Shown one piece after another: positions 10,045 to 26,173 of a DNA stretch of 64,000 nt. The stretch covers positions 124,001 through 188,000 of the forward strand of contig CACJMO010000002.1 in the NCBI GenBank assembly GCA_902594545.1, written 5' to 3'. The translations under genes were made by a program, and so were the position numbers. How positions within the stretch are numbered: the stretch's first letter is position 1; each line of letters begins with the position of its first letter. This stretch comes from an uncultured SAR86 cluster bacterium (lineage in GTDB: Bacteria > Pseudomonadota > Gammaproteobacteria > Magnimaribacterales > Magnimaribacteraceae). The notes beneath the pieces are model-generated. The model did no database searches, was not told where the DNA came from, and saw only the letters and a program-made list of their open reading frames with translations.

Positions 10045-11103
10045 CTACATGTTTGTAACAATAACCTCCTCAGATCCAACTGGTAACACTACCAATGTTC
10101 CATCTTCAACAAGTGTCCACTCTTTGCGGACCGCATCTACGCCCCTTACAAACATAATTTCCTGAATATAATTCCTTGGAGCAGGCGTTAGATGATAAAA
10201 AACTAAATTCTTAACATTTGCCTTGTTGGCAATCTCAGCCGCTTCTACTAGCGTAGTATGATAAGTGGTTATGTCATCCAGTACTGTAGCTAATAAATCC
10301 ACTCCTCGACTTCTTAGTACTTCTTCCATAACTGCTAACATATGGTTAGCTTGGGCTTCATGAAATAGGACATCAACATTCATTGAATTGTCGATTACAC
10401 TCTGAGTGTAAGAAGTATCTCCGGTGATTACCAAAGATCTTCCTTTGTATTCGAATTTGAACCCTAATGCAGGCTCTATTGGTTCATGAACAACCCTAAA
10501 AGCTGTTATTTTTAATTCTCCATTATCAAATATTACCGGATTGTTGAGATCTATAACTCTTGTATCAAAACCTGCATATTCCAGGGGCGCTATTGCATCG
10601 CCATGGTGCTCATTACGAAATGCATAATCATGAGCATATGCCATCTCTATTCCTTGAGTGAACTGATCAATACCTTCTGGACCAAAAACTTTTAACTTTG
10701 AGCTGCGTTGACCTACAACCCATGCATTCTGATGGAGGCCAGGCAAGTCAGCAATGTGGTCCGAATGTAAATGGGTGATTAAAACTGCCTCGATATCCCT
10801 AAAATTAATGTTCCAGCTCCTAAGGTTATCATTGCTACCATCACCTATATCTACAACAAATAGATCTTCTCCAGCAGCAACTAGAATACATGTTTCTGCT
10901 CTTCCTGGGCTAGGTAATGGTGACCTTGAACCACAAACCGCAGCACTTAAGGCATCCTCTTCAGGTAGGTTATCGGTAGCAGAACCGATAGCAGTAAATG
11001 CAGCCGTCAATACCCTGTCTTGTATGGAAGGAACTTGAATTAATACCCATGATGTAACTCCAAGCACTAGAGATACAAGAGTAAATCGAATTAAAATTTT
11101 CAT
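10045..11103 (-). CDS. Membrane-anchored metallo-beta-lactamase-fold hydrolase
   Basis: The 352-residue protein has an N-terminal hydrophobic segment (residues 5-24) that is a signal anchor or signal peptide, so the enzyme domain is periplasmic. The metal motif HLHSDH is at residues 111-116, with a further VVHEP, GDTSYT and YHLTP giving the remaining metal ligands of the beta-lactamase fold. The layout is closest to the RNase Z/arylsulfatase-like branch of the family rather than true beta-lactamases, but the periplasmic location argues against tRNA processing. The substrate is unknown. It lies between the thiolase and a DUF3604 gene, all on the minus strand. Confidence 0.8.
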   Translation of the reverse strand: MKILIRFTLVSLVLGVTSWVLIQVPSIQDRVLTAAFTAIGSATDNLPEEDALSAAVCGSRSPLPSPGRAETCILVAAGEDLFVVDIGDGSNDNLRSWNINFRDIEAVLITHLHSDHIADLPGLHQNAWVVGQRSSKLKVFGPEGIDQFTQGIEMAYAHDYAFRNEHHGDAIAPLEYAGFDTRVIDLNNPVIFDNGELKITAFRVVHEPIEPALGFKFEYKGRSLVITGDTSYTQSVIDNSMNVDVLFHEAQANHMLAVMEEVLRSRGVDLLATVLDDITTYHTTLVEAAEIANKANVKNLVFYHLTPAPRNYIQEIMFVRGVDAVRKEWTLVEDGTLVVLPVGSEEVIVTNM

Positions 11104-13123: not shown

Positions 13124-13184
13124 AATGGAACCCCAATTAAAGAAAAGTATAATTAATGAAACATTATTCTTAAAGAAGAACAAG

Positions 13185-13200
13185 TGTCAGGATCCTGACA
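13185..13200. promoter_or_regulatory. Perfect 16-bp palindrome upstream of the DUF3604 gene
   Basis: TGTCAGGATCCTGACA reads the same on both strands, with two 8-base arms and no spacer. It lies in the gap between the acyl-CoA dehydrogenase stop and the DUF3604 start. With no loop it is a poor terminator hairpin, so a regulator binding site is the more likely reading. It includes GTGTCA, the half-site sequence of the operator at 16070, but with the arms in the opposite order. Confidence 0.45.
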
Positions 13201-13207
13201 TCAAATA

Positions 13208-14404
13208 TCAGAGACCTAAAACAGCTTTTGCCATAATATTTCTTTGTATTTCATTACTGCCACCGTAAATAGTGGTTGCTCTAAGATTCTGATATTTTCC
13301 TGCTATTGATCGATAATCTTCATCTCCAATAGCAGGCTTATTGGAACCTAAGCTGGTGTCTTGGAAAGGAATTCCGTAATAACCAATAACTTCCAATGTT
13401 AATTCAGATATTTCCTGTTCTAAATCTGTAACAAGGGTTTTCATCATTGAAGATTCTGGACCAGGACTGTCGCCTTTGGTCAAGGAACTAAGAATTCTCA
13501 GTGAGGTGTATTGGATAGATAGAGCCTTAATTTCCAATTCAGCAACCTTCGTATTGTAAGTGTCGGCAAAGCTAGAATCTTTATGAGTAGATGAGATCTT
13601 TTTAATTAGCCTTCTAATAAAATCTAGATCTGAAAGGCTCTTGGAACCGCCTATTCCTCCACTTCTCTCAAACTCTAATAAGTATTTAGCGACCGACCAA
13701 CCCTGGTTCTCTTCTCCTATTCTATCGCTCACTTTGGCTACTGCATCAGTGAAGACCACTTGGTTGAAATCATGATCTTTGGCCATCGTAAGAATGGGTT
13801 CGACTTTAACTCCTGGCTGATTCATATCTAGCATCAGAAAGGTTATGCCTTCTTGATTTTTCCCTGAGTTATCAGTTCGTACCAAGCAAAAAATTTTATT
13901 TGCTAAGTGTGCATGAGTAGTCCAGATCTTAGTCCCGTTTATTACGTATTCATCTCCTACTCTTTCTGCTTTACATTGAAGACTAGCCAGATCTGAGCCA
14001 GCTCCGGGTTCACTGTATCCCTGACACCAATAATCCTCACCACTGATAATCCTTGGAATGTAGTAATCTTTTTGCTCTTTTGTTCCTTTTCCCAACAAAA
14101 GAGGACCAATCATAGCCAGACCCATGGGTATCAAATTTGGGGCTCCGGCTTTCGCGCATTCAGATGAAAAAATATAGCGCTGCGTTTGGGTCCAATTAGT
14201 ACCCCCATACTCTTCTGGCCAAGAAGGAACCAACCATCCTTTATTGGCGAGCTTCTTCTGCCACTTCATCGCCACTTCCTTCTCTGTAAAGACAGCGGAA
14301 GTATGTTTTGCTGCATTAACAAGATCTTGTGTGAGTTCTTGCTTTAAAAAATCTCTTACTTCTTCCTGAAAAGAGATTTCTTCTGGAGAAAAATTAAGAT
14401 TCAT
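13208..14404 (-). CDS. Acyl-CoA dehydrogenase
   Basis: The 398-residue FAD enzyme oxidises the alpha-beta bond of an acyl-CoA. It has the N-terminal helical domain, the CQGYSEPGAGSDLASL flavin-contact motif near residues 121-136, the W-T-x-H segment of the beta domain, and the C-terminal YGGSNEIQRNIMAKAVLGL motif. The branch resembles the many uncharacterised acyl-CoA dehydrogenases of marine bacteria and of sterol or aromatic side-chain degradation, so the chain type is open. Its ATG overlaps the stop of the CurA-like reductase by one base (TAATG), which makes a two-gene unit certain enough to call an operon. Confidence 0.92.
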   Translation of the reverse strand: MNLNFSPEEISFQEEVRDFLKQELTQDLVNAAKHTSAVFTEKEVAMKWQKKLANKGWLVPSWPEEYGGTNWTQTQRYIFSSECAKAGAPNLIPMGLAMIGPLLLGKGTKEQKDYYIPRIISGEDYWCQGYSEPGAGSDLASLQCKAERVGDEYVINGTKIWTTHAHLANKIFCLVRTDNSGKNQEGITFLMLDMNQPGVKVEPILTMAKDHDFNQVVFTDAVAKVSDRIGEENQGWSVAKYLLEFERSGGIGGSKSLSDLDFIRRLIKKISSTHKDSSFADTYNTKVAELEIKALSIQYTSLRILSSLTKGDSPGPESSMMKTLVTDLEQEISELTLEVIGYYGIPFQDTSLGSNKPAIGDEDYRSIAGKYQNLRATTIYGGSNEIQRNIMAKAVLGL

Positions 14405-15405
14405 TAAGTAGAGACATTAACAATTCTTGTACCGATATTGCCACCAGCCAGAAGATCGACAAATCCTTTTGGTGCCTCATCCAACCCATCAACTTCATCG
14501 GTTAAAACCTTAAACTGACCTGATTGAATCCATTCGATTATTTCATCAGTTGCCTCGTTGTACTTGTCAGCAAAATCAAAAACTAAAAAACCTTGCATTC
14601 TTATACTTTTATTTACAAGAAGACCTGGGATGCCTTTGGGTCCCGGTTCAGGCGTGTTGGTATCGTATTGAGAAACAACACCACAGCATGTTATTCGACC
14701 CCCAGTGTTCAATCTAAATAGAGCGGAGCCAAGAATCATCCCTCCCGTATTATCAAAATAAACATCAACTCCATCTGGCGTTGCGTCTTTAAGATTTTGC
14801 CTAAAATTTGCATCTTTATAATTAACGGCCGCATCGAAGTTAAGTTCATTGATCAATTTGTTACATTTTTCATCGCTTCCGCAAACTCCTACAACTTTGC
14901 ATCCTTTGATTTTTGCAATTTGACCAACCATATGGCCAACTGAACCTGCTGCAGCAGAAACCATAACAGTCTCACCTGCCTTAGGCTGTCCTACTTTTAG
15001 TAAACCAAAATAAGCGGTCAAACCGTTGATTCCTAATGGACCTAAATAAAGAGAGGGATCTACACCTTCTCTTAGAACTGTTAGGTCGTTAGGTGACTGA
15101 ACTGAATATTCCTGCCATCCAGTTTGAGTAAGAACTTTAGATCCTATGGGGCAGTTCTTGTCAGAGCTTTCAACAACTTCCCCTACACCGGTACTATTCA
15201 TGACAATTCCAGTGGTTGGGGCACCAGCGTAACTTGCACTTCCTTGCAAACCTGCTCTGGTTCCTGCTGTTATAGCGAATGAAATAGTTTTGACCAGTAC
15301 CTCACCTTGTTTAGGCTTTGTAACTTCTGATTTGACTACTTTGTAGTCACTTTCTTTCAATTTTCCTTCCGGAAGACTATCTATCAATACTTGTTTATTT
15401 TCCAT
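14404..15405 (-). CDS. NADPH-dependent CurA/PTGR-like enal/enone reductase (zinc-free MDR family)
   Basis: The 333-residue protein belongs to the medium-chain dehydrogenase/reductase superfamily. The nucleotide-binding motif AAAGSVGHMVGQIAK lies near residues 151-165, and FDNTGG and GRITCCGVVSQY follow. The catalytic zinc ligands of alcohol dehydrogenases are absent, as in the curcumin reductase/prostaglandin reductase branch, which reduces carbon-carbon double bonds next to a carbonyl with NADPH. It lies 42 bp downstream of the TetR gene and is translationally coupled to the acyl-CoA dehydrogenase, so TetR, reductase and dehydrogenase probably form one transcript. Confidence 0.85.
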   Translation of the reverse strand: MENKQVLIDSLPEGKLKESDYKVVKSEVTKPKQGEVLVKTISFAITAGTRAGLQGSASYAGAPTTGIVMNSTGVGEVVESSDKNCPIGSKVLTQTGWQEYSVQSPNDLTVLREGVDPSLYLGPLGINGLTAYFGLLKVGQPKAGETVMVSAAAGSVGHMVGQIAKIKGCKVVGVCGSDEKCNKLINELNFDAAVNYKDANFRQNLKDATPDGVDVYFDNTGGMILGSALFRLNTGGRITCCGVVSQYDTNTPEPGPKGIPGLLVNKSIRMQGFLVFDFADKYNEATDEIIEWIQSGQFKVLTDEVDGLDEAPKGFVDLLAGGNIGTRIVNVST

Positions 15406-15447
15406 ATTCAGAAAATATCTTATTTTTAGAATTTATAAAACTATTAT

Positions 15448-16026
15448 TTAAAGAAGAGCATTTTCAAATGCTTGTATTTTTAAGGCGCAAGCATCTTCTA
15501 CAGAAAGTTGTTGATTCTCTCTAAGCTCTATCCAGTAACCCGTAGAGTTAATGGAAGTTAAGAAAGCTTGTGTGGCCTTAGTCTCCTCCTTGACTTCAGG
15601 AAGCCACGAATAGAGCAAAGCCTTAAGATTTTTTTGATTTCTTTTGTAATTCTTCTGCAAGGTCTTGTACTTCCATTTGTTGGCTAAAGTTGCTCGTAAA
15701 AATTGTAAATTTGATTCATAAGTTCTAGCTTCCATCACAACAAGCTCTTTGATTCTCGATTTTATATCTCCGCATGGTGTTGTATTCATCATATCTCCGG
15801 CGTAGTTTTGTTTTACCCTTTCATCCATAAGAATGAATAATGTTTCTTTATCTTGAATCTGTCTAAACACGGTGCGAATTCCAAGATCTGCTTCATCGGA
15901 AACTTGCTGAGCAGTAGGTTCAAGAATGCCCCTCTGTACGAGGTTCATCAAAGCATCAACTATTGCATTTTGTGTATTGAGGCTTCTGAGACGCCTTCCA
16001 TCATTTTTAATTTTTCCATTTTGCAT
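15448..16026 (-). CDS. TetR family transcriptional regulator
   Basis: I prefer the ATG at 16026 (MQNGKIKNDGRR..., 192 residues) because the longer frame to 16050 adds only a hydrophobic octapeptide. An N-terminal helix-turn-helix (TAQQVSDEADLGIRTVFRQIQDKETLF, about residues 38-64) is followed by an all-helical ligand-binding domain with no close match that I recognise. The gene is divergent from the DUF1330-led operon, and the gap holds a perfect palindrome at 16070-16086. It most likely represses both arms and releases them when a ligand, perhaps a substrate of the neighbouring enzymes, is bound. The ligand is not evident. Confidence 0.85.
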   Translation of the reverse strand: MQNGKIKNDGRRLRSLNTQNAIVDALMNLVQRGILEPTAQQVSDEADLGIRTVFRQIQDKETLFILMDERVKQNYAGDMMNTTPCGDIKSRIKELVVMEARTYESNLQFLRATLANKWKYKTLQKNYKRNQKNLKALLYSWLPEVKEETKATQAFLTSINSTGYWIELRENQQLSVEDACALKIQAFENALL

Positions 16027-16069
16027 TAGACAAAGATAAATTAGTGTCATAATCTAAGTCAACAGAAAA

Positions 16070-16086
16070 TGACACAATTTGTGTCA
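16070..16086. promoter_or_regulatory. Operator-like palindrome in the TetR/DUF1330 divergent gap
   Basis: TGACACAATTTGTGTCA has two perfect 8-base arms around one central base, the length and symmetry usual for TetR operators. It ends 19 bases before the DUF1330 start and lies 43 bases upstream of the preferred TetR start. A related half-site TTAGTGTCA is at 16041-16049. Together GTGTCAT (16044-16050) and ATGACAC (16069-16075) form a second, wider inverted repeat. Autoregulation of both transcripts is the inference. Confidence 0.72.
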
Positions 16087-16105
16087 ATAATAATGGAGAG
16101 GATTT

Positions 16106-16531
16106 ATGGAAGTTAAAAATGCAGTCATGCCGAACGAAATACAACTTAAGGAGTTCAATGACCAAGGAGAAGATAAACCAATTTTTATGGTCAATCTGCT
16201 GAAATTTAAAGAGAAAGCTCAATATCCAGACAAGAGAGAAACTGATCTAACCGGTCAAGAAGCCTATGCTATATATGGAGAACAAGTGGTAGAGCACTTA
16301 GCAAAGGTTGGAGGCAAACCTATCTTTGGAGGCAATGTAGAAAGGTTAATGCTCGGAGAAGTTGAAGACCTTTGGGATCAGGTTGCAATAGCAATGTACC
16401 CATCAAGAAAAGCTATGTTAGAAATGATTTCCGATCCAGATTACATAAAGAGCGCACAGCACAGAGTTGCCGGCCTGGAAGGTCAATTAAATATTGAAAC
16501 TTCTGTTGAAGAGATATTTAAAGATTCTTAA
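16106..16531 (+). CDS. DUF1330 domain protein
   Basis: The 141-residue protein has the DUF1330 pattern: FMVNLLKFKEKA near residues 27-38, YGEQVVEHLAKVGGKPIFGGNVE in the middle, and a DQVAIAMYPSRKAMLEMISDPDY segment. The family has a dimeric alpha-beta barrel (ferredoxin-like) fold; no general enzyme function is established. It is the first gene of the TetR-flanked plus-strand operon, with a strong GGAGAGG ribosome site at 16095-16101. The next gene follows after 10 bases. Confidence 0.82.
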   Translation: MEVKNAVMPNEIQLKEFNDQGEDKPIFMVNLLKFKEKAQYPDKRETDLTGQEAYAIYGEQVVEHLAKVGGKPIFGGNVERLMLGEVEDLWDQVAIAMYPSRKAMLEMISDPDYIKSAQHRVAGLEGQLNIETSVEEIFKDS

Positions 16532-16541
16532 AGAATAGAAG

Positions 16542-17573
16542 ATGAAAACCTTTAGCCGAATCTTTATTGCAATTAATGTTGCTCTGATTATTTTTGTAAT
16601 TTACATAACTCGAGACGGTGTTACTTATACTCCTTTTGGAGATGGCGAAGTTATTTTGGACTCTGGAAACTACGAAGCATTTCCCTTGCCCGATTATGCG
16701 TCAGCTATGATTAATGAGAACTATAAAAGTTACTTTATTGAAGTAGAACCAGGTATAAAAGTTCATGTTCTTGAAGTGGGTGAAGGTTTCCCGGTTTTTC
16801 TAATGCACGGCAATCCAACATCTGGATTTCTATACAGAAAAATAGCCAACAAATTGCCTTTAGATAAAGTCAGAGTCATTATGCCAACCAGTCCTGGGCT
16901 TGGCTTCTCTTCTAAAATTCCTGCAAGTGAGCATAAGCTAGAAAATCACATTCGATGGATTCATACAGTCCTAGATCAACTGGAGATAAAGGAATTAATA
17001 TATGCCGGACAAGACTGGGGGGGACCTATTGGTATGGGCGCATTATCTCTTTCTCCCAACCTTCTTAAGGGTGCTGTCATTATGAATACAGGATTTAATG
17101 CACCAACTCTAAGTATTGATATTTCCCCAGCACATGCGACTGTCAAGACTCCTGTGATAGGAGAGTTGTTGGTAGAAGTTTTCTTCTCTATGTTTGATAG
17201 ATTAGGCAATGTGCAAGGCGATCCTGAGACATGGACTCCAGAAGTAGCAGAACTTTACGGCAAACCCCTGTATGACAATGGCAATGAAAAGGCGCCATTG
17301 GCGATGATGAGAATGGTCACAGATGGTCCAAATCATCCAAGCACTCCCTCGATGGTTAATATAGAAAATTACGTTAAAACCCTTGATATTCCTGCAGAGA
17401 TAGTTTGGGGAATGAATGATCCAATTCTAGGAAAAGCTCTTCCAAGAATGCAAGAAAACTTTCCGAAAGCTCCAGTAACGCAAACTGATGCTGGTCATTT
17501 CCTACAAGAAGAAGTTCCAACTGAAATAGCAGAGGCTCTTATTAGAGTCTTTAACCAAGTTAATAAGAGATAA
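16542..17573 (+). CDS. Membrane-anchored haloalkane dehalogenase-like alpha/beta hydrolase
   Basis: The 343-residue protein starts with a hydrophobic anchor (about residues 7-22). The hydrolase core has HGNPTS at 89-94, where Asn91 matches the halide-stabilising residue of some haloalkane dehalogenases. The nucleophile elbow GQDWGG has Asp158 and Trp159, a likely acid is Asp293 in WGMNDP, and the base is His319 in DAGHF. An aspartate nucleophile followed by tryptophan favours a dehalogenase or epoxide hydrolase over an esterase. The substrate is unproven. The enzyme would be periplasmic if the anchor is N-in. It is 4 bases upstream of the GST gene. Confidence 0.78.
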   Translation: MKTFSRIFIAINVALIIFVIYITRDGVTYTPFGDGEVILDSGNYEAFPLPDYASAMINENYKSYFIEVEPGIKVHVLEVGEGFPVFLMHGNPTSGFLYRKIANKLPLDKVRVIMPTSPGLGFSSKIPASEHKLENHIRWIHTVLDQLEIKELIYAGQDWGGPIGMGALSLSPNLLKGAVIMNTGFNAPTLSIDISPAHATVKTPVIGELLVEVFFSMFDRLGNVQGDPETWTPEVAELYGKPLYDNGNEKAPLAMMRMVTDGPNHPSTPSMVNIENYVKTLDIPAEIVWGMNDPILGKALPRMQENFPKAPVTQTDAGHFLQEEVPTEIAEALIRVFNQVNKR

Positions 17574-17577
17574 AAAA

Positions 17578-18642
17578 ATGTTACAAAAAGAAAAAGTCAC
17601 ACTCATAGGTGCACCACCCTCTCCCTACACAAGGAAGATGATTGCTCTACTCCGCTATAGACACATACCCTATGAAATAGTTTGGGGTAATCCCGGAGAG
17701 CTTTTAGCTGGAGAAGGTCCTTATGCCGATCTGAATATTGAACCCCCTAAGCCGGTTCTGCTTCCAACTTTCCTTATGAGAGACGACAAAGGAAATCTTA
17801 AAACCGTTACTGATTCAACACCAATCATTAGAAGGCTAGAAGATGAGTTTGAAGGTAGAAGTGTCATTCCAGAAGATCCAGCACTGAGTTTTTTAAATTA
17901 TCTTCTAGAAGATTTTGGAGATGAATGGGTTACTAAATATATGTTCCATTACCGTTGGCATTTTGAAGAAGATGCCGACAACGCTTCATCAATACTTCCT
18001 TTAAATCATAAGGTTGACCTTCCCGAAGAAGCATGGAAATTATTTAAAGAAGGAATTGGTAACAGACAGATAGAGAGGCTTTGGGTTGTTGGGTCAAACG
18101 ATATTACAGCACCCATTATTGAAAATAGTTATAAACGATTCTTAGAAATTATGCAGACGCATTTAGCAAACTTACCTTTTTTATTTGGCTACAGGCCTAG
18201 CTCTGCTGATTTTGCAATCTATGGACAGCTCACTCAATTGGTTGGTCTGGATCCTACTTCAAGAGCCATCGCACACCAAAAATCTCTTAGAACTGTTGCT
18301 TGGATTAATAGCTTGGAGGATTTATCAGGAATAAAACTTGATGATAATCCTTGGGTTGTGATGGAAGAATTACCTGAATCCATAAAATCTCTATTAAAGG
18401 AAATAGGTCGTGGTTATGTGCCTGCTTTATTGGAAAATAATAGAGCTTTAGAAAATGGAGATGAAACTTGGGAAACAGAAATTGATGGTTCTACTTGGTC
18501 CCAAAAGACTTTTAATTATCAAGGCAAATGTCTGCAATGGATTAATCAAGAGTTTTATACTTTAACCGACATGGATCAGAAAAGATTACTGAATCTTTTT
18601 GAAGGAACAGGCTGTGAAAAATTATTGATGAAAGAAAAATAA
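17578..18642 (+). CDS. Glutathione S-transferase-like protein with long C-terminal extension
   Basis: The 354-residue protein opens with a thioredoxin-like GST N-domain (VTLIGAPPSPYTRKMIALLRYRHIPYEIVWG, residues 8-38) with a DSTPIIRRLEDEF glutathione-contact segment near 81-93. A helical C-domain contains FLFGYRPSSADFAIYGQLTQL near 201-221. Usual GSTs are 200-230 residues, so about 100 residues after that domain are extra and I do not recognise them. Glutathione conjugation or reductive dehalogenation would suit the neighbouring hydrolases, but this is inference. It lies between the two dehalogenase-like genes with spacers of 4 and 1 bases. Confidence 0.75.
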   Translation: MLQKEKVTLIGAPPSPYTRKMIALLRYRHIPYEIVWGNPGELLAGEGPYADLNIEPPKPVLLPTFLMRDDKGNLKTVTDSTPIIRRLEDEFEGRSVIPEDPALSFLNYLLEDFGDEWVTKYMFHYRWHFEEDADNASSILPLNHKVDLPEEAWKLFKEGIGNRQIERLWVVGSNDITAPIIENSYKRFLEIMQTHLANLPFLFGYRPSSADFAIYGQLTQLVGLDPTSRAIAHQKSLRTVAWINSLEDLSGIKLDDNPWVVMEELPESIKSLLKEIGRGYVPALLENNRALENGDETWETEIDGSTWSQKTFNYQGKCLQWINQEFYTLTDMDQKRLLNLFEGTGCEKLLMKEK

Positions 18643-18643
18643 A

Positions 18644-19708
18644 ATGAAAATATTAAGAACACCCGACAAAAGCTTTGAAGGAATAACCGATTTTCCTTAT
18701 GAGCCCCACTACACAAATATAAAAACCCATGATGGTTCAGAATTGAGAATTCATCATATAGATGAAGGGCCTAAGGATGGACCTATTTTATTAGCAATGC
18801 ACGGCCAGCCAGTTTGGTGTTATCTCTATTCAAAGATGATACCTTTTTTGACCGATGCAGGTGTAAGAGTGATAGCTCCAGATTTACCGGGTTATGGAAA
18901 ATCTGATAAGCCCGCTTCAAGGGAAGACTATAGCTATCAAAATCAGGTGGATTGGATGGTCGATTGGTTAAATGCCAATGATTTTCAAAAAATTACATTC
19001 TTTGGGCAAGATTGGGGTGGCTTAATCGGATTAAGAATAGTTGCAAGAGAGCCTGATAGATTCTCAAAAGTCTCAATGGGAAATACCGGTCTTCCTTACA
19101 ATCCTGAAGTGTCTGAAGAGGTTATTGAAGAAATAAAAGCCTTCAGAGAAAGTAATATAAAACTTCATCCAATGTCGATGGCGAAACAGATAAGGCAAAT
19201 GGATAGTGGAAAAACTCATCCAGGTCTTAAGTTCATGTACTGGCAGAAATTTTGTTGGGATACCGAAGACTTGCCTATAGGTTTTATTCAATCGATGCAG
19301 ATGGATAAAAGATCTATGATTTCAACAATCCTTAATTATATTTTTATCCTGCTAGGAAAATACAGTGCATCACCTTTTAAGTCCTATGTTGCTAAAGCTT
19401 ATGAGGCGCCTTTTCCAGATCCAAGCTATAAAATGGGTCCGAGAGCTATGCCTAGTCACGTGCCGACAGTTCCCGATCAATCTTTAGAAGAACAGAGAAA
19501 AGCGAGGGAGTTTTTCTCTACGTGGGATAAACCTTTTCTCAGTGTTTTTGCAGGAGATGATCCAGTGACTAATGGAATTGAGAAAGACGTTTTAGAGATG
19601 TGCCCAAATGCAAAGAGTGCTGCCCATATTGGAGGTGGTCATTTTTACCAGTGGACAAGACCTAAAGAATTATCTGAATTATTAATTAATTTTATAAAGG
19701 AAAACTAA
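18644..19708 (+). CDS. Haloalkane dehalogenase-like hydrolase
   Basis: The 354-residue cytoplasmic alpha/beta hydrolase resembles the DhlA branch (RVIAPDLPGYGKSDKP at 75-90). The motif HGQPVWCYLY starts at residue 53, with Gln where DhlA-type enzymes usually have Glu or Asn. The nucleophile is Asp123 in GQDWGG with Trp124 as a possible halide ligand; Asp305 or Asp306 and His333 (GGGHF) complete the triad. The middle of the cap domain is longer than in typical 300-residue enzymes. Its stop overlaps the next start by one base (TAATG). It is clearly different from the first dehalogenase-like gene, so this is not a recent tandem copy. Confidence 0.82.
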   Translation: MKILRTPDKSFEGITDFPYEPHYTNIKTHDGSELRIHHIDEGPKDGPILLAMHGQPVWCYLYSKMIPFLTDAGVRVIAPDLPGYGKSDKPASREDYSYQNQVDWMVDWLNANDFQKITFFGQDWGGLIGLRIVAREPDRFSKVSMGNTGLPYNPEVSEEVIEEIKAFRESNIKLHPMSMAKQIRQMDSGKTHPGLKFMYWQKFCWDTEDLPIGFIQSMQMDKRSMISTILNYIFILLGKYSASPFKSYVAKAYEAPFPDPSYKMGPRAMPSHVPTVPDQSLEEQRKAREFFSTWDKPFLSVFAGDDPVTNGIEKDVLEMCPNAKSAAHIGGGHFYQWTRPKELSELLINFIKEN

Positions 19709-20631
19709 TGAACAGAGTAACGGAACATACAGGATCAAAATACCCAATAATTCAAGCACCCATGGGGTGGATTGCAAGAAGCCAATTAGCTTCTGCAGTT
19801 TGTAATGCTGGTGGTTTTGGCGTTATAGAAACCTCTTCGGGTGAAGTAGATAACTGTAAGGCTGAAATAGAAAAAATGTCAGAACTTACTGATCAACCCT
19901 TTGGAGTAAATCTGCCGCTACTCTTCTTAAGAGATGAAAGTATGGTGGAGTTCTGTGTTCAACATGGCGTGAAATTTGTAACCACATCCGCTGGAGATCC
20001 TTCCAAATATATAGATATACTCAAGTATGCTGGAATTACTGTTTATCACGCTGTGCCAAGCGTTGAAGGTGCCATTAAAGCTGCGGATTGCGGCGTGGAT
20101 GGACTGGTTGTTGAAGGCACAGAAGGTGGTGGATTCAAAAGCCCCGAAGAAGTAGGTCTTTTTGTATTAATCCAAGCAATTCGAAAGCAAATTGATCTTC
20201 CAATTATTGCAGCTGGTGGAATTGCTGATGGTGCCGGTATGGCTGCAGCTTTTGCGGTTGGTGCTGAGGGCATTCAAATGGGAACACGATTTGTCTCAAG
20301 CAAAGAAAGTCCGGTGCATGACAATTTTAAAAATTACATATTTGACTCCCCTCTCAATGGGACTTGGATATTGAATAAAACATCTAAGCCCGTAATTAGA
20401 GCATTGAGAACTGACTTCACTAAAGAAATCTTGGATGCTGGAGAAATGGATATGTCCGCAATGGGAAAAATACAGGATTTATACTTTGGGGGTGATATGA
20501 ATGCAGCACCTGCACTTTCAGGTCAATCGGTTGGTCTGATAGATGGTATTAAATCTGCTGAAGATATTATTCAAGACACCATAAAAGAATTTAATGAAGC
20601 ATGTTCAAAGCTCGGAGCATTGAAGCTATAG
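19708..20631 (+). CDS. Nitronate monooxygenase (2-nitropropane dioxygenase-like FMN enzyme)
   Basis: The 307-residue TIM-barrel flavoprotein begins with the family signature KYPIIQAPMGWIA near residues 11-23, and the FMN phosphate site AAGGIADGAGMAAAFAVGAEGIQMGTRF is near 170-197. The EGTEGGGF segment near 135-142 is in the position of the substrate loop; the family catalytic histidine, usually in GxxAGGH, is replaced here by Gly-Phe. The family oxidises nitronates, but many members act on other substrates. Translation is coupled to the upstream dehalogenase by a one-base overlap. Confidence 0.85.
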   Translation: MNRVTEHTGSKYPIIQAPMGWIARSQLASAVCNAGGFGVIETSSGEVDNCKAEIEKMSELTDQPFGVNLPLLFLRDESMVEFCVQHGVKFVTTSAGDPSKYIDILKYAGITVYHAVPSVEGAIKAADCGVDGLVVEGTEGGGFKSPEEVGLFVLIQAIRKQIDLPIIAAGGIADGAGMAAAFAVGAEGIQMGTRFVSSKESPVHDNFKNYIFDSPLNGTWILNKTSKPVIRALRTDFTKEILDAGEMDMSAMGKIQDLYFGGDMNAAPALSGQSVGLIDGIKSAEDIIQDTIKEFNEACSKLGALKL

Positions 20632-20633
20632 AT

Positions 20634-21104
20634 ATGTTCAATTTTAATCTACTGCCCTCCCCTGCAGATAATATTTACAAGGGCAATAAGATTGCTCAAT
20701 GGTTCTTTATTGCCTTCGTCTGCCTTATGACATGGAGATCAATCATCCATATGGTCTTTGAAAAATATGGCATGCACGAAATAGCAAACTTATTAGTTCT
20801 GTCCGGTGATCCAGATCCCATGCCACTAATTTATATGTTCTTTTCTTTGTGGGGTTTTGCTCAACTAATTTTTTGCGGAGTTTGTTGGATAGTTATTTTT
20901 AGATACAAATCATTGATACCTTTAATGTTGGTATTTTGGTTAATTGAATGGTCCGGAAGACTTTTTTTATATCCACTAATAGGTAGAGCAACCGTAGACA
21001 GTGGTATTTATTCCACTGGAAATACTCCGGGAGTAGAAGGTGCTCCTTATGTCACCATTATGTTGGTAATTTTTTTAATACTTTCCTTAAGAGAAAAAAA
21101 ATAA
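20634..21104 (+). CDS. Integral membrane protein of unknown function
   Basis: I start at the ATG at 20634, 2 bases after the preceding stop; an ATG at 20601 would overlap the upstream gene by 31 bases. The 156-residue protein has about four hydrophobic segments (near residues 22-41, 63-85, 90-108 and 135-150) and the polar loop HEIANLLVLSGDPDPMP. I do not recognise a family. Its position inside the operon suggests a role beside the detoxification enzymes, for example as a transporter or quinone-linked anchor, but nothing in the sequence shows this. Confidence 0.7.
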   Translation: MFNFNLLPSPADNIYKGNKIAQWFFIAFVCLMTWRSIIHMVFEKYGMHEIANLLVLSGDPDPMPLIYMFFSLWGFAQLIFCGVCWIVIFRYKSLIPLMLVFWLIEWSGRLFLYPLIGRATVDSGIYSTGNTPGVEGAPYVTIMLVIFLILSLREKK

Positions 21105-21111
21105 GAAAACT

Positions 21112-22218
21112 ATGAAGCAATTACAAACCTTAAAATCTGATCTTCATCAATCACGAATTGCCCTAGAACAGCTTGGAGAAGATATTCAGGACAGTGAAGT
21201 TCTTCTCCAAGTAGAGAAATTTTCATTTACTGCCAACAATGTAACTTATGGCGTTGCGGGCGATAGCATAGGTTATTGGAATTTTTTTCCAGCTATCAAT
21301 AATCCTAAAAATACATGGGGCTGTATACCGGTCTGGGGTTTTGCTGAAGTCATACTGTCGAATAACCCTGAAATAGAGCATGGTGAAAGAATATTTGGTT
21401 ATTTTCCTCCTGCTAACTTTTTAATTGTTAATCCAGTAAAAGTTTCTGCAGGGTCTTTTAGTGATGGCAAAGAGCATCGTAAAGAATTACCCCCTGTCTA
21501 CAACAACTATGTAAGGCTTAATGCTGAAACAGGCTACGATCAATCCATGGATAATATAAGAGCATTACTTTTCCCTCTCCATATCACGGCATTTTGTTTA
21601 TGTGATGCTTTAGAAGAGCAATCCTATGATGGTGCATCTCAGGTTCTTATAGTCAGTGCTTCAAGTAAAACAGCCATAGGTCTTGCTCAAGGTTTAGCTG
21701 AAACTGATGATTCACCAAAAATTGTTGGATTAACATCAAGCAATAACATTCAATTTGTCGAAAGCCTGGGTTGTTATGACCAAGTAATATCCTATGATGA
21801 TTTAAGTAGCATAAATAATGCTCCTTCAGTCATGGTTGATATGTCGGGTAACCAAGAAGTTTTATCTGCAGTCCAAAATAATTTGAAAGAAGATTTACTG
21901 AAGTGCCTAACTGTCGGTATGACACATTGGGACAAAGGAGGAACGGTGGACGAAGCTCTTGCACAAGCCGAGTTACAAGAAAGAACAGAATTCTTTTTTG
22001 CACCTGCTCATATACAAAAGCGAATAGGAGATTGGGGTCAGGAAGGATATGCAGAAAAAACGAATGCGTTTATGACCAGGAGAGCTAAACAAAGTAATGA
22101 TTGGATGCAAATCAAAAAGATTACGGGATTAGATAATTTTTCTGAAACCTACAAAGAAGTGGTTGCAGGAAATATAAATCCTAATGAGGGAATCATAGTA
22201 GAAGTTTATGATGCGTAA
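21112..22218 (+). CDS. DUF2855 family protein
   Basis: The 368-residue protein matches DUF2855: FSFTANNVTYGVAGDSIGYWNFFPA near residues 37-61, GCIPVWGFAEV, and a nucleotide-binding-like SASSKTAIGLAQGL segment near 183-196. The overall order (N-terminal catalytic-like domain, then a Rossmann-like region with VMVDMSG) resembles medium-chain dehydrogenases, so an oxidoreductase is a reasonable guess, but the family is uncharacterised to my knowledge. Its end overlaps the sulfatase start by 11 bases. Confidence 0.75.
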   Translation: MKQLQTLKSDLHQSRIALEQLGEDIQDSEVLLQVEKFSFTANNVTYGVAGDSIGYWNFFPAINNPKNTWGCIPVWGFAEVILSNNPEIEHGERIFGYFPPANFLIVNPVKVSAGSFSDGKEHRKELPPVYNNYVRLNAETGYDQSMDNIRALLFPLHITAFCLCDALEEQSYDGASQVLIVSASSKTAIGLAQGLAETDDSPKIVGLTSSNNIQFVESLGCYDQVISYDDLSSINNAPSVMVDMSGNQEVLSAVQNNLKEDLLKCLTVGMTHWDKGGTVDEALAQAELQERTEFFFAPAHIQKRIGDWGQEGYAEKTNAFMTRRAKQSNDWMQIKKITGLDNFSETYKEVVAGNINPNEGIIVEVYDA

Positions 22219-23863
22219 AAAGCTGACTTACTTTTTACCGGTACTTTTAATTTCGGGGTTTTTAATCTGGGAATACAAAGTAAATTTAATCATTTGGACA
22301 TTGCCTAAAATCATGAACTTGGTAAATCCAATTCAGGAGAATATATCAACGAATTGGTCAGAAGGTCCCTTTGAAATTTCAGATAAAAACGATTCTAGGC
22401 CAAATATTATTTTGATTTTGGCTGATGATATGGGTTACAACGATATATCTTTGCATAATGGCGGTGCTGCAGATGGTTCCCTAAAGACTCCTCATATTGA
22501 TTCATTGGCAGAAGATGGTATTTGGTTTTCTAGAGGTTATGCGGCTAATGCTACTTGTGCGCCATCAAGAGCTTCAATAATGACTGGAAAATATCCAACA
22601 AGATTTGGTTTTGAATTTACTCCTGTTCCTGATGCTGGAAGGATGGTTCTATCTTGGCTTGCAGAAGAGGATGACGCAGAGTTAAAAGCAAGAATTGACA
22701 GAGAATTAGCAATGAACTTACCTCCATTTATGGAGCAAGGTATGCCATCTGAGCAGATAACAATTGCTGAGGTTTTAAAGGATGCAGGATATTACACAGC
22801 GCACATCGGAAAATGGCATCTTGGTCATGCAGGTGGAATGGATCCTTTAAGCCAAGGATTTGTAGACTCTTTATCTTTGGGAGGTGCGTATTATTTACCG
22901 GAAGACCATCCAGAAGTAGTGAATGCAAAGTTTGATACTAGCATTGATAAGATGGTTTGGAGTTCAGGTCAATATGCGGCTAGGTTCAATGAAGGTGCTC
23001 TCTTCGAACCGGATAAATATGTAACAGATTACTACACGGACGAAGCGCTAAAAGTAATTGAAAAAAATAAAAATAGACCATTTTTCTTATATCTAAGTCA
23101 TTGGGCCATTCACAACCCTCTACAAGCTTTAAGGAGCGATGTAGAACAAATGAGTCATATGTCAGGTCACAATCTTCAAGTATATGCAGGAATGATTGCT
23201 TCTCTGGATAGAAGTGTGGGAAAAATTTTACAGAAATTAAAAGATTTAGATATTTATGGAAAAACCTTAATCATTTTTACTAGCGACAATGGTGGAGCTA
23301 ATTACATCGAATTAGAAGACATAAATAAACCGTTTAGAGGCTGGAAAATTAGTTTTTTTGAAGGGGGAATAAGAGTTCCTTTTATAGTAAGTTGGCCTGA
23401 CGAGATAACTCCAGGAATGATCTCTGACAGCGCAGTTCATCATTTTGATATTTTTCCAACAATTACGTCAGCGGCACAAGTTAAAACTTCTGATGAAAGA
23501 ATATTAGATGGAGTTGATTTGTTGCCTCACATAAAAAAAGAAAGTTCTGGAGAACCCCATGAAACACTTTTTTGGCGATCGGGAAATCATCAATCTGTTC
23601 TCCATAAAAAATGGAAATACATAATTAGTAAAAAAGAAAATAAACGCTGGTTATTCGATACTTCGATAGATCCTACAGAAAAAAATAACTTGATAGAAAG
23701 TCATCCCAAAGAAGCCAAACAAATAGAGGAGCTCTTAGAAAAATTTAATTCTGAGCAAAAAGAGCCTTTATTTCCGTCCGCTTTTGAGGCCCCAACTATG
23801 ATAGATAAGTATGACGGGCAAGAATACGAGGAAGGAGATGAGTATATTTACTGGTCTAATTAA
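22208..23863 (+). CDS. Membrane-anchored sulfatase (formylglycine type)
   Basis: The 551-residue enzyme has an N-terminal anchor (residues 8-21 and a second hydrophobic stretch near 26-40). The arylsulfatase core begins with NIILILADDMGYND (metal residues Asp73 and Asp74). The CAPSR motif at 117-121 is the C-x-P-S-R site where Cys117 is converted to formylglycine, followed by GKYPTR. GKWHLG near 201 and TSDNGG near 364 complete the active site. It would hydrolyse sulfate esters at the outer face of the inner membrane and needs a maturation enzyme that is not in the window. A start at the second Met (22211) is equally possible. Confidence 0.9.
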   Translation: MMRKKLTYFLPVLLISGFLIWEYKVNLIIWTLPKIMNLVNPIQENISTNWSEGPFEISDKNDSRPNIILILADDMGYNDISLHNGGAADGSLKTPHIDSLAEDGIWFSRGYAANATCAPSRASIMTGKYPTRFGFEFTPVPDAGRMVLSWLAEEDDAELKARIDRELAMNLPPFMEQGMPSEQITIAEVLKDAGYYTAHIGKWHLGHAGGMDPLSQGFVDSLSLGGAYYLPEDHPEVVNAKFDTSIDKMVWSSGQYAARFNEGALFEPDKYVTDYYTDEALKVIEKNKNRPFFLYLSHWAIHNPLQALRSDVEQMSHMSGHNLQVYAGMIASLDRSVGKILQKLKDLDIYGKTLIIFTSDNGGANYIELEDINKPFRGWKISFFEGGIRVPFIVSWPDEITPGMISDSAVHHFDIFPTITSAAQVKTSDERILDGVDLLPHIKKESSGEPHETLFWRSGNHQSVLHKKWKYIISKKENKRWLFDTSIDPTEKNNLIESHPKEAKQIEELLEKFNSEQKEPLFPSAFEAPTMIDKYDGQEYEEGDEYIYWSN

Positions 23864-23879
23864 CATAAAAAAATAAATC

Positions 23880-24278
23880 ATGAATCAACTAGCTCAAAAA
23901 ACTCATATCCCTTGGTGGCTCACTTTAATTATCTTTATGGAAGTTTGGCCTATGTTTTTAGGTCCTTATTGGGCCCTTACTGATCCAACTTTCTTTGGAA
24001 CTCCAGAATCCACAACGACTATTCTTGGAGATTGGATTTATACCGCAAGAAATCTTGCAGTAGGTTTTGCATTGATTCTTGCGTTCTATCTTAAGAATGC
24101 TCCAATGCTATTTATACTAATTTTTATTAGATTATTTACTGATTTAATTGATGGCCCAGCCTTTTGGTTCTTTAGGGATCAGGTTAGTGAAATTGCTTTC
24201 ATTATAGTTTTTCTGTTTGGGTACTACATACCAGCCATCATAGCTTTACGATATCTCTGGAAACAGATGAAAATATAA
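23880..24278 (+). CDS. Small integral membrane protein of unknown function
   Basis: The 132-residue protein has about four hydrophobic helices (near 13-30, 58-74, 76-92 and 104-125) and conserved-looking polar signatures between them: TPEST at 43-47 and RLFTDLIDGPAFWFF near 84-98. It resembles the 20634 gene product in size and helix number but not obviously in sequence. I do not recognise a family. It is the last gene before a 78-base gap that has a possible new promoter. Confidence 0.65.
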   Translation: MNQLAQKTHIPWWLTLIIFMEVWPMFLGPYWALTDPTFFGTPESTTTILGDWIYTARNLAVGFALILAFYLKNAPMLFILIFIRLFTDLIDGPAFWFFRDQVSEIAFIIVFLFGYYIPAIIALRYLWKQMKI

Positions 24279-24302
24279 AGCATTACTTTTAAAAAAAGTT
24301 TA

Positions 24303-24331
24303 CTGTCTATAAATTAATCATTTTATATACT
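24303..24331 (+). promoter_or_regulatory. Possible sigma-70 promoter upstream of the second nitronate monooxygenase gene
   Basis: A TATACT -10 hexamer at 24326-24331 matches the consensus in five of six positions and is 17 bases downstream of a weak -35 (CTGTCT, 24303-24308). It lies in the only sizeable gap of the plus-strand run, 26 bases before the start codon, with a strong GGAGGAG ribosome site at 24348. The call rests on the -10 and on position only. Confidence 0.35.
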
Positions 24332-24356
24332 AAGTTTCAAAATTTATGGAGGAGAA

Positions 24357-25328
24357 ATGAAAACACAAATAACTGAACTTTTTGACATTGAGCATCCTAT
24401 TATTCAAGGGGGCATGCATTATGTTGGTTTTGCGGAATTGGCTGCGGCTGTATCGAATGCGGGTGGGCTTGGAATCATAACCGGACTAACCCAAGGAACA
24501 CCTGAAAAATTGGATGCTGAAATAAAGAAATGCCAAGCCTTAACAGATAAACCATTTGGCGTAAATTTAACCTTTTTACCTTCCCTTACTCCTCCAGATT
24601 ATCCAGGATTAATTGAAGTAATTATAAATAACGGCGTTAAAGTAGTAGAAACAGCTGGAAGAAATCCTGCCGTTTATATGCCTGCAATGAAGGATGCAGG
24701 AATTAAAGTCATACACAAATGTACATCGGTAAGACATTCTCTTAAAGCACAAGATATAGGTTGTGATGCTGTTTCAGTAGATGGATTTGAGTGCGGAGGT
24801 CATCCTGGAGAAGATGACATACCAAACTTTATACTCCTTCCAAGAGCAGCTGATGAATTAGATATACCATTTGTTGCATCTGGCGGAATGGCGGATGCAA
24901 GAAGTCTTGTTGCTGCTATGGCGCTGGGAGCTGAAGGCATGAATATGGGCACTCGTTTCATTGCAACAGAAGATGCGCCTGTTCATCAGAATGTAAAAGA
25001 AGCAATTGTTAATGCTAGTGAACTCGATACAAGATTAATCATGAGATCTCTAACTAACACTGAGAGAGTATTGAATAATCCAGCTGTGGAAAGTTTGATG
25101 GCAAAAGAAAAGGCCTTGGGTGATGACCTGAAATTTGAAGATATAGTAGATGAAGTTGCAGGAGTCTATCCAAAAGTCATGATGGAAGGTGAGCCAGAAG
25201 CTGGTGCTTGGTCATGTGGTATGGTAGCGGGATTAGTAAGTGACATACCATCTGTAAAAGAGTTGATAGACAGGATAATGTCTGAGGCCGAAGAGATAAT
25301 TGCCTCAAAACTATCAAAGGCTATCTAG
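24357..25328 (+). CDS. Nitronate monooxygenase-like FMN enzyme (second copy)
   Basis: The 323-residue protein starts FDIEHPIIQGGMHYVGFAELAAAVSNAGGLGIITG, the family's N-terminal barrel strand, and carries ASGGMADARSLVAAMALGAEGMNMGTRF near residues 178-205 for FMN phosphate. The segment DGFECGGHPGEDD near 141-153 contains the catalytic histidine context (CGGH, His148) that the first copy at 19708 lacks. This copy is therefore the better candidate for genuine nitronate oxidation. It has its own strong ribosome site and a possible promoter. Confidence 0.88.
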   Translation: MKTQITELFDIEHPIIQGGMHYVGFAELAAAVSNAGGLGIITGLTQGTPEKLDAEIKKCQALTDKPFGVNLTFLPSLTPPDYPGLIEVIINNGVKVVETAGRNPAVYMPAMKDAGIKVIHKCTSVRHSLKAQDIGCDAVSVDGFECGGHPGEDDIPNFILLPRAADELDIPFVASGGMADARSLVAAMALGAEGMNMGTRFIATEDAPVHQNVKEAIVNASELDTRLIMRSLTNTERVLNNPAVESLMAKEKALGDDLKFEDIVDEVAGVYPKVMMEGEPEAGAWSCGMVAGLVSDIPSVKELIDRIMSEAEEIIASKLSKAI

Positions 25329-25338
25329 CGGAGTAAAT

Positions 25339-25878
25339 TTGGTACGATCTTCCCGAAAGGTACACAAGTATCTCAGCTTGGCGATCTCTGTTCAGCTTTT
25401 GTTATGGACGGTATCTGGTATTTATTTCTCTTTTAATAAGATCGAAGACGTCAGAGGCAATCAGTATTTAAAGCCTGTTGATATAATTGAAGCGCCTAAA
25501 GGAAATAAAATTAGTCATGAGCAAGCTCTCGAGATAGTTTTTGATCAAACCTACCTTGAGCCTTTGATCCTCACAGAGATATCTCAAGAGGCGCCAGGTT
25601 CAGAATACAGAGGAAGGGACCTCCCTCTCTATAAAATAGAGTCAAGCGATGAAAACTCTAAAAATATAAATGTCTATGTAGACCCTTATTCGGCAAAGAT
25701 AGTGGCAATTCGATCAAATCAATGGCGAATTTGGGACTTTATGTGGGGAATTCACATCATGGACTGGAATGAAAGGGACAATATAGGAAACATTTTTTTA
25801 AAAGTATTCTCCATTCTTGCTTTATTAAGTGCCCTTTCTGGAATCTACCTTTTCTTTTCAGCGAATAAGAGAAATTAG
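25339..25878 (+). CDS. PepSY-type membrane protein
   Basis: I choose the TTG at 25339, which has GCGGAG at 25328-25333 with suitable spacing and leaves the upstream gene intact; an in-frame TTG at 25300 would overlap that gene. The protein of about 179 residues has a first helix (SLAISVQLLLWTVSGIYFSF), a periplasmic domain with the PepSY-like pattern ISHEQALEIVF and VYVDPYSAKIVAI, a WDFMWGIHIMDW segment and a C-terminal helix. This is the layout of the PepSY-associated TM proteins, some linked to iron reduction. The exact function is unknown. Confidence 0.7.
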   Translation: MVRSSRKVHKYLSLAISVQLLLWTVSGIYFSFNKIEDVRGNQYLKPVDIIEAPKGNKISHEQALEIVFDQTYLEPLILTEISQEAPGSEYRGRDLPLYKIESSDENSKNINVYVDPYSAKIVAIRSNQWRIWDFMWGIHIMDWNERDNIGNIFLKVFSILALLSALSGIYLFFSANKRN

Positions 25879-25879
25879 T

Positions 25880-26173
25880 TCATTTTAAGGAGTCTTTAAA
25901 CCATTCTGGCAATAAATCAATATTGTGTTTTTTTGCAAATTTAGCAATCATCGGAATGGTGATTGGAGCAAAAGGTATTATCGCAAGTAATCCGAAACTT
26001 AAGTCTTTAAGTATCTCATTCAACTGCTTATTGGCCCTTTCCAATGATTCTTCATCTGCTTCTCCTTTTAAGTAATCACTATAGGTGGTCAACATTTGCC
26101 TCGAGGACTCAGTTTCATAAGCAAACTTTTCTTTTAGAAAGGCTATAATTCTTTTGATTCTTCCATCAAACAT
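25880..26173 (-). CDS. Small hypothetical protein, LETM1-like C-terminal motif
   Basis: The 97-residue protein is helical with one hydrophobic stretch (DLSFGLLAIIPFAPITIPMIAKFA, about residues 57-80) and ends in KKHNIDLLPEWFK. The 'PFAPIT...P...K.A.K..IDLLPEWFK' end recalls bacterial LETM1-like short proteins, but the match is weak and from memory. It is the only minus-strand gene between two long plus-strand runs and ends one base after the PepSY stop. Confidence 0.6.
   Translation of the reverse strand: MFDGRIKRIIAFLKEKFAYETESSRQMLTTYSDYLKGEADEESLERANKQLNEILKDLSFGLLAIIPFAPITIPMIAKFAKKHNIDLLPEWFKDSLK

Follow-up and report, generated by a model that had tools for sequence, protein, structure and literature searches.

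Here we describe a set of SAR86 genes that is conserved and in part mobile, at positions 13208-25878 of a 64,000-nucleotide stretch of DNA (the window) from an uncultured SAR86 cluster bacterium (GenBank assembly GCA_902594545.1, contig CACJMO010000002.1, positions 124,001 to 188,000). The set, with its linked regulator, is well supported. Its members (Table 1) include ABH2, an alpha/beta hydrolase predicted to be a haloalkane dehalogenase (HLD), and a long glutathione transferase (GST), and we propose, tentatively and with somewhat less than even confidence, that it is a catabolic operon under TetR control whose substrate is a hydrophobic and electrophilic compound of natural origin, most likely an organohalogen. 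An original prediction, made from the letters of the window alone, had proposed here a TetR-controlled set of two arms with two dehalogenases, two nitronate monooxygenases (NMOs) and a sulfatase.

The predicted dehalogenase and its neighbourhood in SAR86

ABH2 is predicted to be a haloalkane dehalogenase of the HLD-I type, an assignment supported at residue level. It exceeds the curated cut-off of the NCBIfam haloalkane dehalogenase model PRK00870 (329 against 265 bits) and matches the solved haloalkane dehalogenases 6f9o (305 bits), 5esr (296 bits) and 4mj3 (275 bits), which, together with 2xt0 and 1edb, we take to be members of the HLD-I subfamily; the 60 listed of its 63 solved relatives are all haloalkane dehalogenases, their variants or their fusions, except for one row titled by its ligand. 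In the available text of PMC6920932, the catalytic pentad of HLD-I is given as Asp-His-Asp plus Trp-Trp and that of HLD-III as Asp-His-Asp plus Asn-Trp. All five HLD-I positions are kept in ABH2, one of them by weak local alignment. Among 75 distinct sequences D123-W124 (GQDW) is present in 74, W200 in all, D306 (AG[DN]DPVTN) in 71 and H333 (GGGHF) in 73, W200 being placed as the second halide Trp by short local alignments to 5esr and 4mj3 that score weakly (1.5 and 3.4 bits). The other alpha/beta hydrolase, ABH1, has HGNPT, GQDWGG and AGHFLQE in 5/5 distinct sequences and GMNDP in the window protein. The carbon-halogen chemistry originally proposed for two dehalogenases is supported at residue level for ABH2; ABH1 has HLD-III-like residues but falls under the curated NCBIfam cut-offs.

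We searched for ABH2, the GST and DUF2855 in 101 genomes, our own included. At E<=1e-60, ABH2 is present in 65 of them, and in 31 of the 39 most complete. The GST is present in 75, with strong matches in 69; the six genomes with weaker matches were excluded from the count of pairs. ABH2 and a strong GST occur together in 59 genomes, at most 10 kb apart in 54 and at most 3 kb apart in 49, and every genome that has both on one contig has them within 10 kb (54/54). This clustering is far beyond chance. Since 54 of the 59 genomes hold the pair within 10 kb, the view that these genes are rarely neighbours in related genomes is contradicted.

The partners of ABH2 recur as well. We fetched 65 regions around DUF2855, the GST or ABH2, of which 51 contain ABH2 and represent a subset of the ABH2-bearing genomes; neighbours were counted within a radius of 10 kb at fixed identity thresholds. 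The 51 regions contain DUF1330 in 44 cases, the GST in 42, the small membrane protein MEM1 in 39, NMO1 in 34, the sulfatase in 31, the MBL-fold hydrolase in 30, NMO2 in 27, DUF2855 in 20, the MDR reductase in 17, the acyl-CoA dehydrogenase (ACAD) in 15, the TetR-type regulator in 14 and ABH1 in four, the counts for the GST and DUF2855 being biased upwards because of the way in which the regions were chosen. Gene order is fixed within the window's genus except for members that are present or missing. Using arbitrary family codes that are not equated with named families, and with the window in f1, the members stay together, though reshuffled, across f1, f2 and f3, the order being shuffled in f2 and f3; in f4, ABH2, DUF1330, MEM1 and the MBL gene are grouped and the GST is elsewhere. 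The partners beside ABH2 in relatives often stand in another order than in the window. Where same-genus regions reach the ACAD, it is 82-88% identical and adjoins the MDR gene or stands one gene off. The MBL hydrolase has its HxHxDH motif in 48/48 distinct sequences.

DUF2855 was tried as a marker for the cluster and ruled out, being present in 26 of the 101 genomes while the cluster persists without it. Across the class, DUF2855 occurs in 11 of 369 genomes, our own included. Outside SAR86, no other cluster genes were found beside it at the 10 places fetched of 11, one stretch being just 3.2 kb long; in Porticoccaceae/SAR92 it lies away from the other cluster genes, with at most ACAD- or MDR-like neighbours, and the three plasmid homologues examined among 47 records (two Pseudosulfitobacter, one Variovorax) show no cluster. 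The long GST, at E<=1e-20, is found in 12 of the 369 genomes, four of them SAR86, and its best match outside SAR86 (genome G145, 481 bits) has no surrounding cluster.

Records of another kind carry the core too. Six records whose titles name PS1, OCS116 or Rhodobiaceae (L126-L130, L132) have ABH2 and the GST divergent from DUF2855; four of these also have DUF1330 and MEM1, and three the MBL gene. A further Rhodobiaceae record (L110) has the GST without ABH2 in its 11.6 kb, and neither gene is present in the 7 kb of L133, titled Alphaproteobacteria; the alphaproteobacterial origin of the PS1-type records rests on their titles. Five PS1 ABH2 proteins are 87.5-89.3% identical to that of the window, whereas the PS1 GST and MEM1 (L126-L132) are just 51-57% identical. 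In the unrooted ABH2 tree, the five PS1 sequences make up a single clade (SH-aLRT 99) nested in a supported f1 group of 21 rows, three further f1 rows (L171-L173) being placed elsewhere. Monophyly of the 21 rows without PS1 is rejected (p-AU 0.0076), a test weakened by the fact that the rows were picked after the tree had been seen. Because the ABH2 tree nests PS1 within the f1 group, while the GST and DUF2855 trees place PS1 and f1 rows on opposite sides of a supported branch, ABH2 appears to have moved separately from the GST and DUF2855.

Layout and proposed regulation of the locus

Table 1. Features of the cluster in the window, with the evidence for each; anchor and membrane assignments (MEM1, MEM2, ABH1, sulfatase) were made by eye.
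Feature	Position	Strand	Evidence
MBL-fold hydrolase, beyond the DUF3604 gene; recurrent cluster partner outside 13208-25878	10045..11103	-	PF12706
ACAD	13208..14404	-	Pfam PF02770, PF02771, PF00441
CurA/prostaglandin-reductase-like MDR	14404..15405	-	NCBIfam CurA model 327 bits, under cut-off 440
TetR-type regulator	15448..16050	-	Profile match to solved TetR proteins; aligned members match TetR_N
Decayed palindrome copy, 14/17 of relatives' TGACATAATATATGTCA	16045..16061		Read from sequence
Perfect palindrome TGACACAATTTGTGTCA	16070..16086		Sole copy in assembly
DUF1330	16106..16531	+	PF07045 26.0 bits, cut-off 23
ABH1, alpha/beta hydrolase with N-terminal anchor; accessory	16542..17573	+	HLD-III-like residues HGNPT, GQDW, D, H
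Long GST with C-terminal extension	17578..18642	+	PF13417
ABH2, predicted HLD-I type haloalkane dehalogenase	18644..19708	+	NCBIfam PRK00870 329 bits, cut-off 265
NMO1, flavoprotein of FabK/NMO fold lacking the GGH histidine	19708..20631	+	PF03060; FabK 5gvh 206 bits
MEM1, small membrane protein	20601..21104, start probably 20634	+	No Pfam family
DUF2855, optional member	21112..22218	+	PF11017 338 bits; MDR double-bond-reductase fold by model
Protein of the type I sulfatase family with CAPSR motif and N-terminal anchor	22208..23863	+	PF00884 173 bits
MEM2, small membrane protein	23880..24278	+	Weak DUF4267 match, 17.7 bits, cut-off 27.8
NMO2, NMO-family protein with GGH	24357..25328	+	PF03060 209 bits
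PepSY-TM protein, last of the plus-strand run	25300..25878	+	PF03929 46.5 bits

Pfam and NCBIfam agree with the families originally assigned, namely the ACAD, the CurA-like reductase, DUF1330, two alpha/beta hydrolases, the long GST, DUF2855, the sulfatase, two NMO-family proteins and a PepSY protein. The minus arm of ACAD, CurA-like MDR and TetR genes lies where it had been placed, as does the start of the plus arm. Between the first nine genes of the plus arm the spacers are 10, 4, 1, -1, -31, 7, -11 and 16 bases; the next two are 78 and -29. The 31-base overlap probably reflects a mis-called MEM1 start, since an in-frame ATG at 20634 leaves a 2-base spacer, as in region L030. The description of a nine-gene plus arm in which no spacer exceeds 16 bases thus holds from DUF1330 to MEM2 (16106-24278), but the full range contains 11 plus-strand genes, and NMO2 is the tenth, beyond the 78-base gap.

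The TetR-type regulator that had been called here is borne out by its relatives. Alone, the window protein scores 11.7 bits against a Pfam cut-off of 24 bits, and it does not match TetR_N at E<=0.1, whereas eight of the nine aligned members do (best 2.2e-5); the profile matches solved TetR proteins, the best being 6azh (5.6e-8). The gene may in truth start further in, at the ATG of position 16026. The inter-arm palindrome, TGACACAA-T-TTGTGTCA, is perfect, its core TGACAC-N5-GTGTCA occurs once in the 1.34-Mb, 39-contig, 71% complete assembly, and allowing up to three mismatches no further copy was found in the window (0.37 expected). All six relatives with tetR beside DUF1330 have a different 17-base site, near TGACATA-N3-TATGTCA, just upstream of DUF1330, two of them perfect. 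Of 12 relatives in which the MDR gene is present and tetR is absent from this place, TGACATAA-N2-TATGTT is retained in seven; the copies in L035 and L159 are more degraded, and L166, L167 and L169 show no site. Any of these relatives may have tetR elsewhere in the genome. The window's own copy of the relatives' site overlaps the outer tetR start. Hence the single perfect operator originally proposed is perfect and unique in the assembly, but we do not regard it as the one operator, because it is not conserved and the window also keeps the 14/17 copy. We infer that the TetR protein binds the palindrome. A promoter scan was discarded, as it gave fewer consensus sites than shuffled sequences (27 against 39.6).

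Several features of the surroundings are recorded here in their own right. A DUF3604 protein (11153-13183, 728 bits) adjoins the minus arm, and in another SAR86 family, too, DUF3604 genes are found close to the cluster. In region L030 of genome G011, PepSY and the homologue of the gene at window position 25880 are separated by unrelated genes over about 6 kb (flipped coordinates 12495-18697). An acetolactate-synthase-like TPP enzyme (PRK07586, 679 bits) stands between ACAD and MDR in L032 (4183-5730), and the ACAD-MDR gaps of L160, L161 and L163-L165 are similar in size. In L053 (G083:C1:374001-394000), ABH2, DUF2855 and the GST are broken by stops or split, which is either a decaying cluster or an assembly problem.

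A proposed pathway and its rivals

From this gene set we infer an organohalogen substrate, an order of steps, transcription of the genes as units, and TetR binding with derepression; the substrate may be a halogenated or sulfated lipid or polyketide, as the original prediction suggested. In the proposed pathway, the substrate would first be trimmed at the cell envelope by the anchored sulfatase, and by the anchored ABH1 where present. ABH2 would then remove the halide by the aspartyl-ester mechanism of haloalkane dehalogenases, and glutathione would be added or removed at a reactive carbon by the long GST, to which another SAR86 family adds further GSTs and an SDR. The CurA-like MDR and DUF2855 would reduce enone C=C bonds, and the ACAD would hand the product to beta-oxidation. 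Binding of the substrate, or of its CoA ester, would release the TetR protein from the inter-arm palindrome. In favour of the pathway, the glutathione-synthetase domain PF02955 is found in 41/41 genomes, strongly (E<=1e-50) in 40, weak matches meaning little because the control also matched Bacillus subtilis.

The reductase step would draw on two proteins. The MDR protein has its AAAGSVG motif in 16/16 distinct sequences. DUF2855 has no relative in the PDB by sequence; its predicted structure (pLDDT 79.6, with residues 110-131 and 271-280 below 50) matches MDR double-bond reductases over its full length (4b7c, Z 22.6, rmsd 3.7, 294 residues aligned; CurA 5zxn, Z 22.2, 4.2 A, 307 aligned), so that DUF2855 models as a CurA-like double-bond reductase fold.

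A number of observations weigh against a catabolic, dehalogenating pathway. In ABH2, HGQP stands where the five aligned solved HLD enzymes have HGEP (Gln for Glu), and its cap is longer than theirs. ABH2 and the GST are on separate contigs in five of the 59 genomes (G019, G037, G059, G073, G092), and in all four of these that were fetched (G019, G037, G059, G092) the GST stands apart from ABH2. DUF2855, ABH1, TetR, MDR and ACAD are optional or limited to certain families, and in four of the 51 ABH2 regions no more than one core partner is present, three of these regions (L171-L173) being from other f1 genera. The claim of two nitronate monooxygenases is in doubt, because NMO1 has GGGF in 45/45 distinct sequences and so lacks the GGH histidine of NMO and FabK enzymes, whereas NMO2 has GGH at the same place in 38/38. 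No enzyme that would mature the sulfatase was found in our own genome or in the closed relative G004, and a role of the GST in detoxification alone fits about as well.

For the sulfatase, the predicted cleavage of sulfate esters is less well supported: the type I motif C-x-P-S-R is present, as C[AS]PSR in 48/48 distinct sequences, but maturation enzymes were mostly not found in the 41 genomes in which each of our profile searches (FGE, anSME, PF02955, PF02332) was made. An FGE domain was found in six, within frames of 760-775 residues, and not in our own genome (71% complete) or in the closed relative G004; anSME was found in none of the 41, with a control that matched 12 of 14. C-x-P-S-R sulfatases thus occur in SAR86 relatives of which 35/41 have no FGE found and 41/41 no anSME.

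The strongest alternative, though we consider it clearly less probable than catabolism, is that the cluster, with a TetR protein as its sensor, disarms reactive algal electrophiles such as oxylipins, enals and epoxides by hydrolysing them, conjugating them to glutathione and reducing enones. The GST, the two CurA/PTGR-type reductases (one by sequence, one by model), the alpha/beta hydrolases and TetR would all fit such an electrophile response. The predicted structure of the long GST (pLDDT 79.4) matches 4kf9 best (Z 16.0, 3.7 A, 225 aligned) and, among others, StyI (9qd3; Z 15.7, 3.6 A, 226 aligned), the C-terminal extension being little tested by these matches because they mostly span residues 3-252; its sole NCBIfam match is IsoI, at 21.9 bits against a cut-off of 300. 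Against detoxification, the minus-arm ACAD, the sulfatase and the TonB-type receptors seen by eye near the clusters of some relatives point to use as food, and there is no efflux pump among the annotated members.

Somewhat less likely again is that ABH2 and ABH1 are epoxide hydrolases or other alpha/beta hydrolases, in a pathway for oxylipins, epoxy-carotenoids or similar compounds. The fold and the Trp after the nucleophile are common to epoxide hydrolases and to enzymes of the ABH2 type, and ABH2 departs from the aligned solved enzymes in the Glu-to-Gln change and longer cap noted above. On the other side stand the Trp at the second halide position in every ABH2 sequence, the curated dehalogenase cut-off that ABH2 passes, and its listed solved relatives, which, bar the row titled by its ligand, are haloalkane dehalogenases, variants or fusions.

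It is improbable that there is no single pathway and that a compact genome has simply co-inherited unrelated genes: many members are optional, ABH2 or the GST stands alone in some genomes, and the history of the PS1 ABH2 is unlike that of the GST and DUF2855, but PS1 and several SAR86 families have the same core regrouped in different orders. A glutathione-dependent pathway like that of isoprene (isoGHIJ) or styrene (StyI) is marginally less probable still, since, despite the StyI structural match and the two extra GSTs and SDR within the f2 cluster L043 (L040 and L050 being similar by eye), those extra GSTs match models of disulfide-bond oxidoreductases and of MaiA/GstA, under the cut-offs, and the diiron monooxygenase hydroxylase PF02332 was found in 0/41 genomes in a search for which the control genomes were silent too and which did not include IsoG.

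Relation to known systems

In the literature, covered mostly without subscription journals and in part only as partial texts, no description of a SAR86 dehalogenase-GST cluster was found; searches on DUF2855 and on the PS1 clade with haloalkane dehalogenase gave no match, DUF1330 had none among the matches listed, and the available text of PMC8371827, PMC4810484, PMC6299022 and PMC12750322 does not describe the cluster. The available text of a 2024 SAR86 isolate paper reports high GST copy number, arylsulfatases and beta-oxidation, and tfdA homologues tied to a chlorinated aromatic (PMC11582366). These GSTs, arylsulfatases, beta-oxidation and tfdA homologues are the points of contact between our cluster and the lipid, sterol and aromatic catabolism described there, but the word dehalogenase was not found in the main text available, nor any account of the cluster. 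A SAR86 isolate, HIMB1674 (CP151794), exists.

The two comparisons closest to the GST and reductases are with isoprene and styrene degradation and with the CurA and prostaglandin reductases. The isoGHIJ and StyI pathways resemble the cluster in having GSTs with an SDR, as in one SAR86 family, and a StyI-like GST fold; the SAR86 cluster differs in its C-terminally extended GST and its dehalogenase-type core, and no monooxygenase was found, in a search whose control was silent. The CurA/prostaglandin reductase family of MDR proteins is joined by the MDR protein through sequence and by DUF2855 through predicted fold, the identity of DUF2855 to the listed structural matches being just 10-17%.

The fundamental biological role of haloalkane dehalogenases was still unclear to the authors of a 2023 paper, in its available part (PMC10503415). 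Hydrolysis of natural 1-chloro-n-alkanes was thought likely in the available part of a 2018 review (PMC6299022), and trench sediments contain HLDs, with 965 halogenated molecules in seawater dissolved organic matter cited in the available part of PMC12750322. We consider it possible, though unlikely, that a natural setting of HLD-I dehalogenases is a dedicated, horizontally moving pathway that mineralises a widespread natural organohalogen, for example a halogenated, sulfated algal lipid, in SAR86 and PS1; if this is true, dehalogenation would be an ordinary route of carbon acquisition for open-ocean bacterioplankton. As ABH2 occurs in 65 of 101 genomes, mostly with recurrent partners, the cluster offers concrete enzymes and a regulator for the question of HLD function and gives these enzymes a testable natural setting. 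SAR86 is among the commonest bacterial groups of the ocean. With known HLD-I enzymes ABH2 shares the Asp nucleophile, His base, Asp acid and Trp-Trp pair, and its N-terminal 150 residues align with them end to end; it differs from them in its setting, within a cluster of GST, DUF1330, NMO and sulfatase genes.

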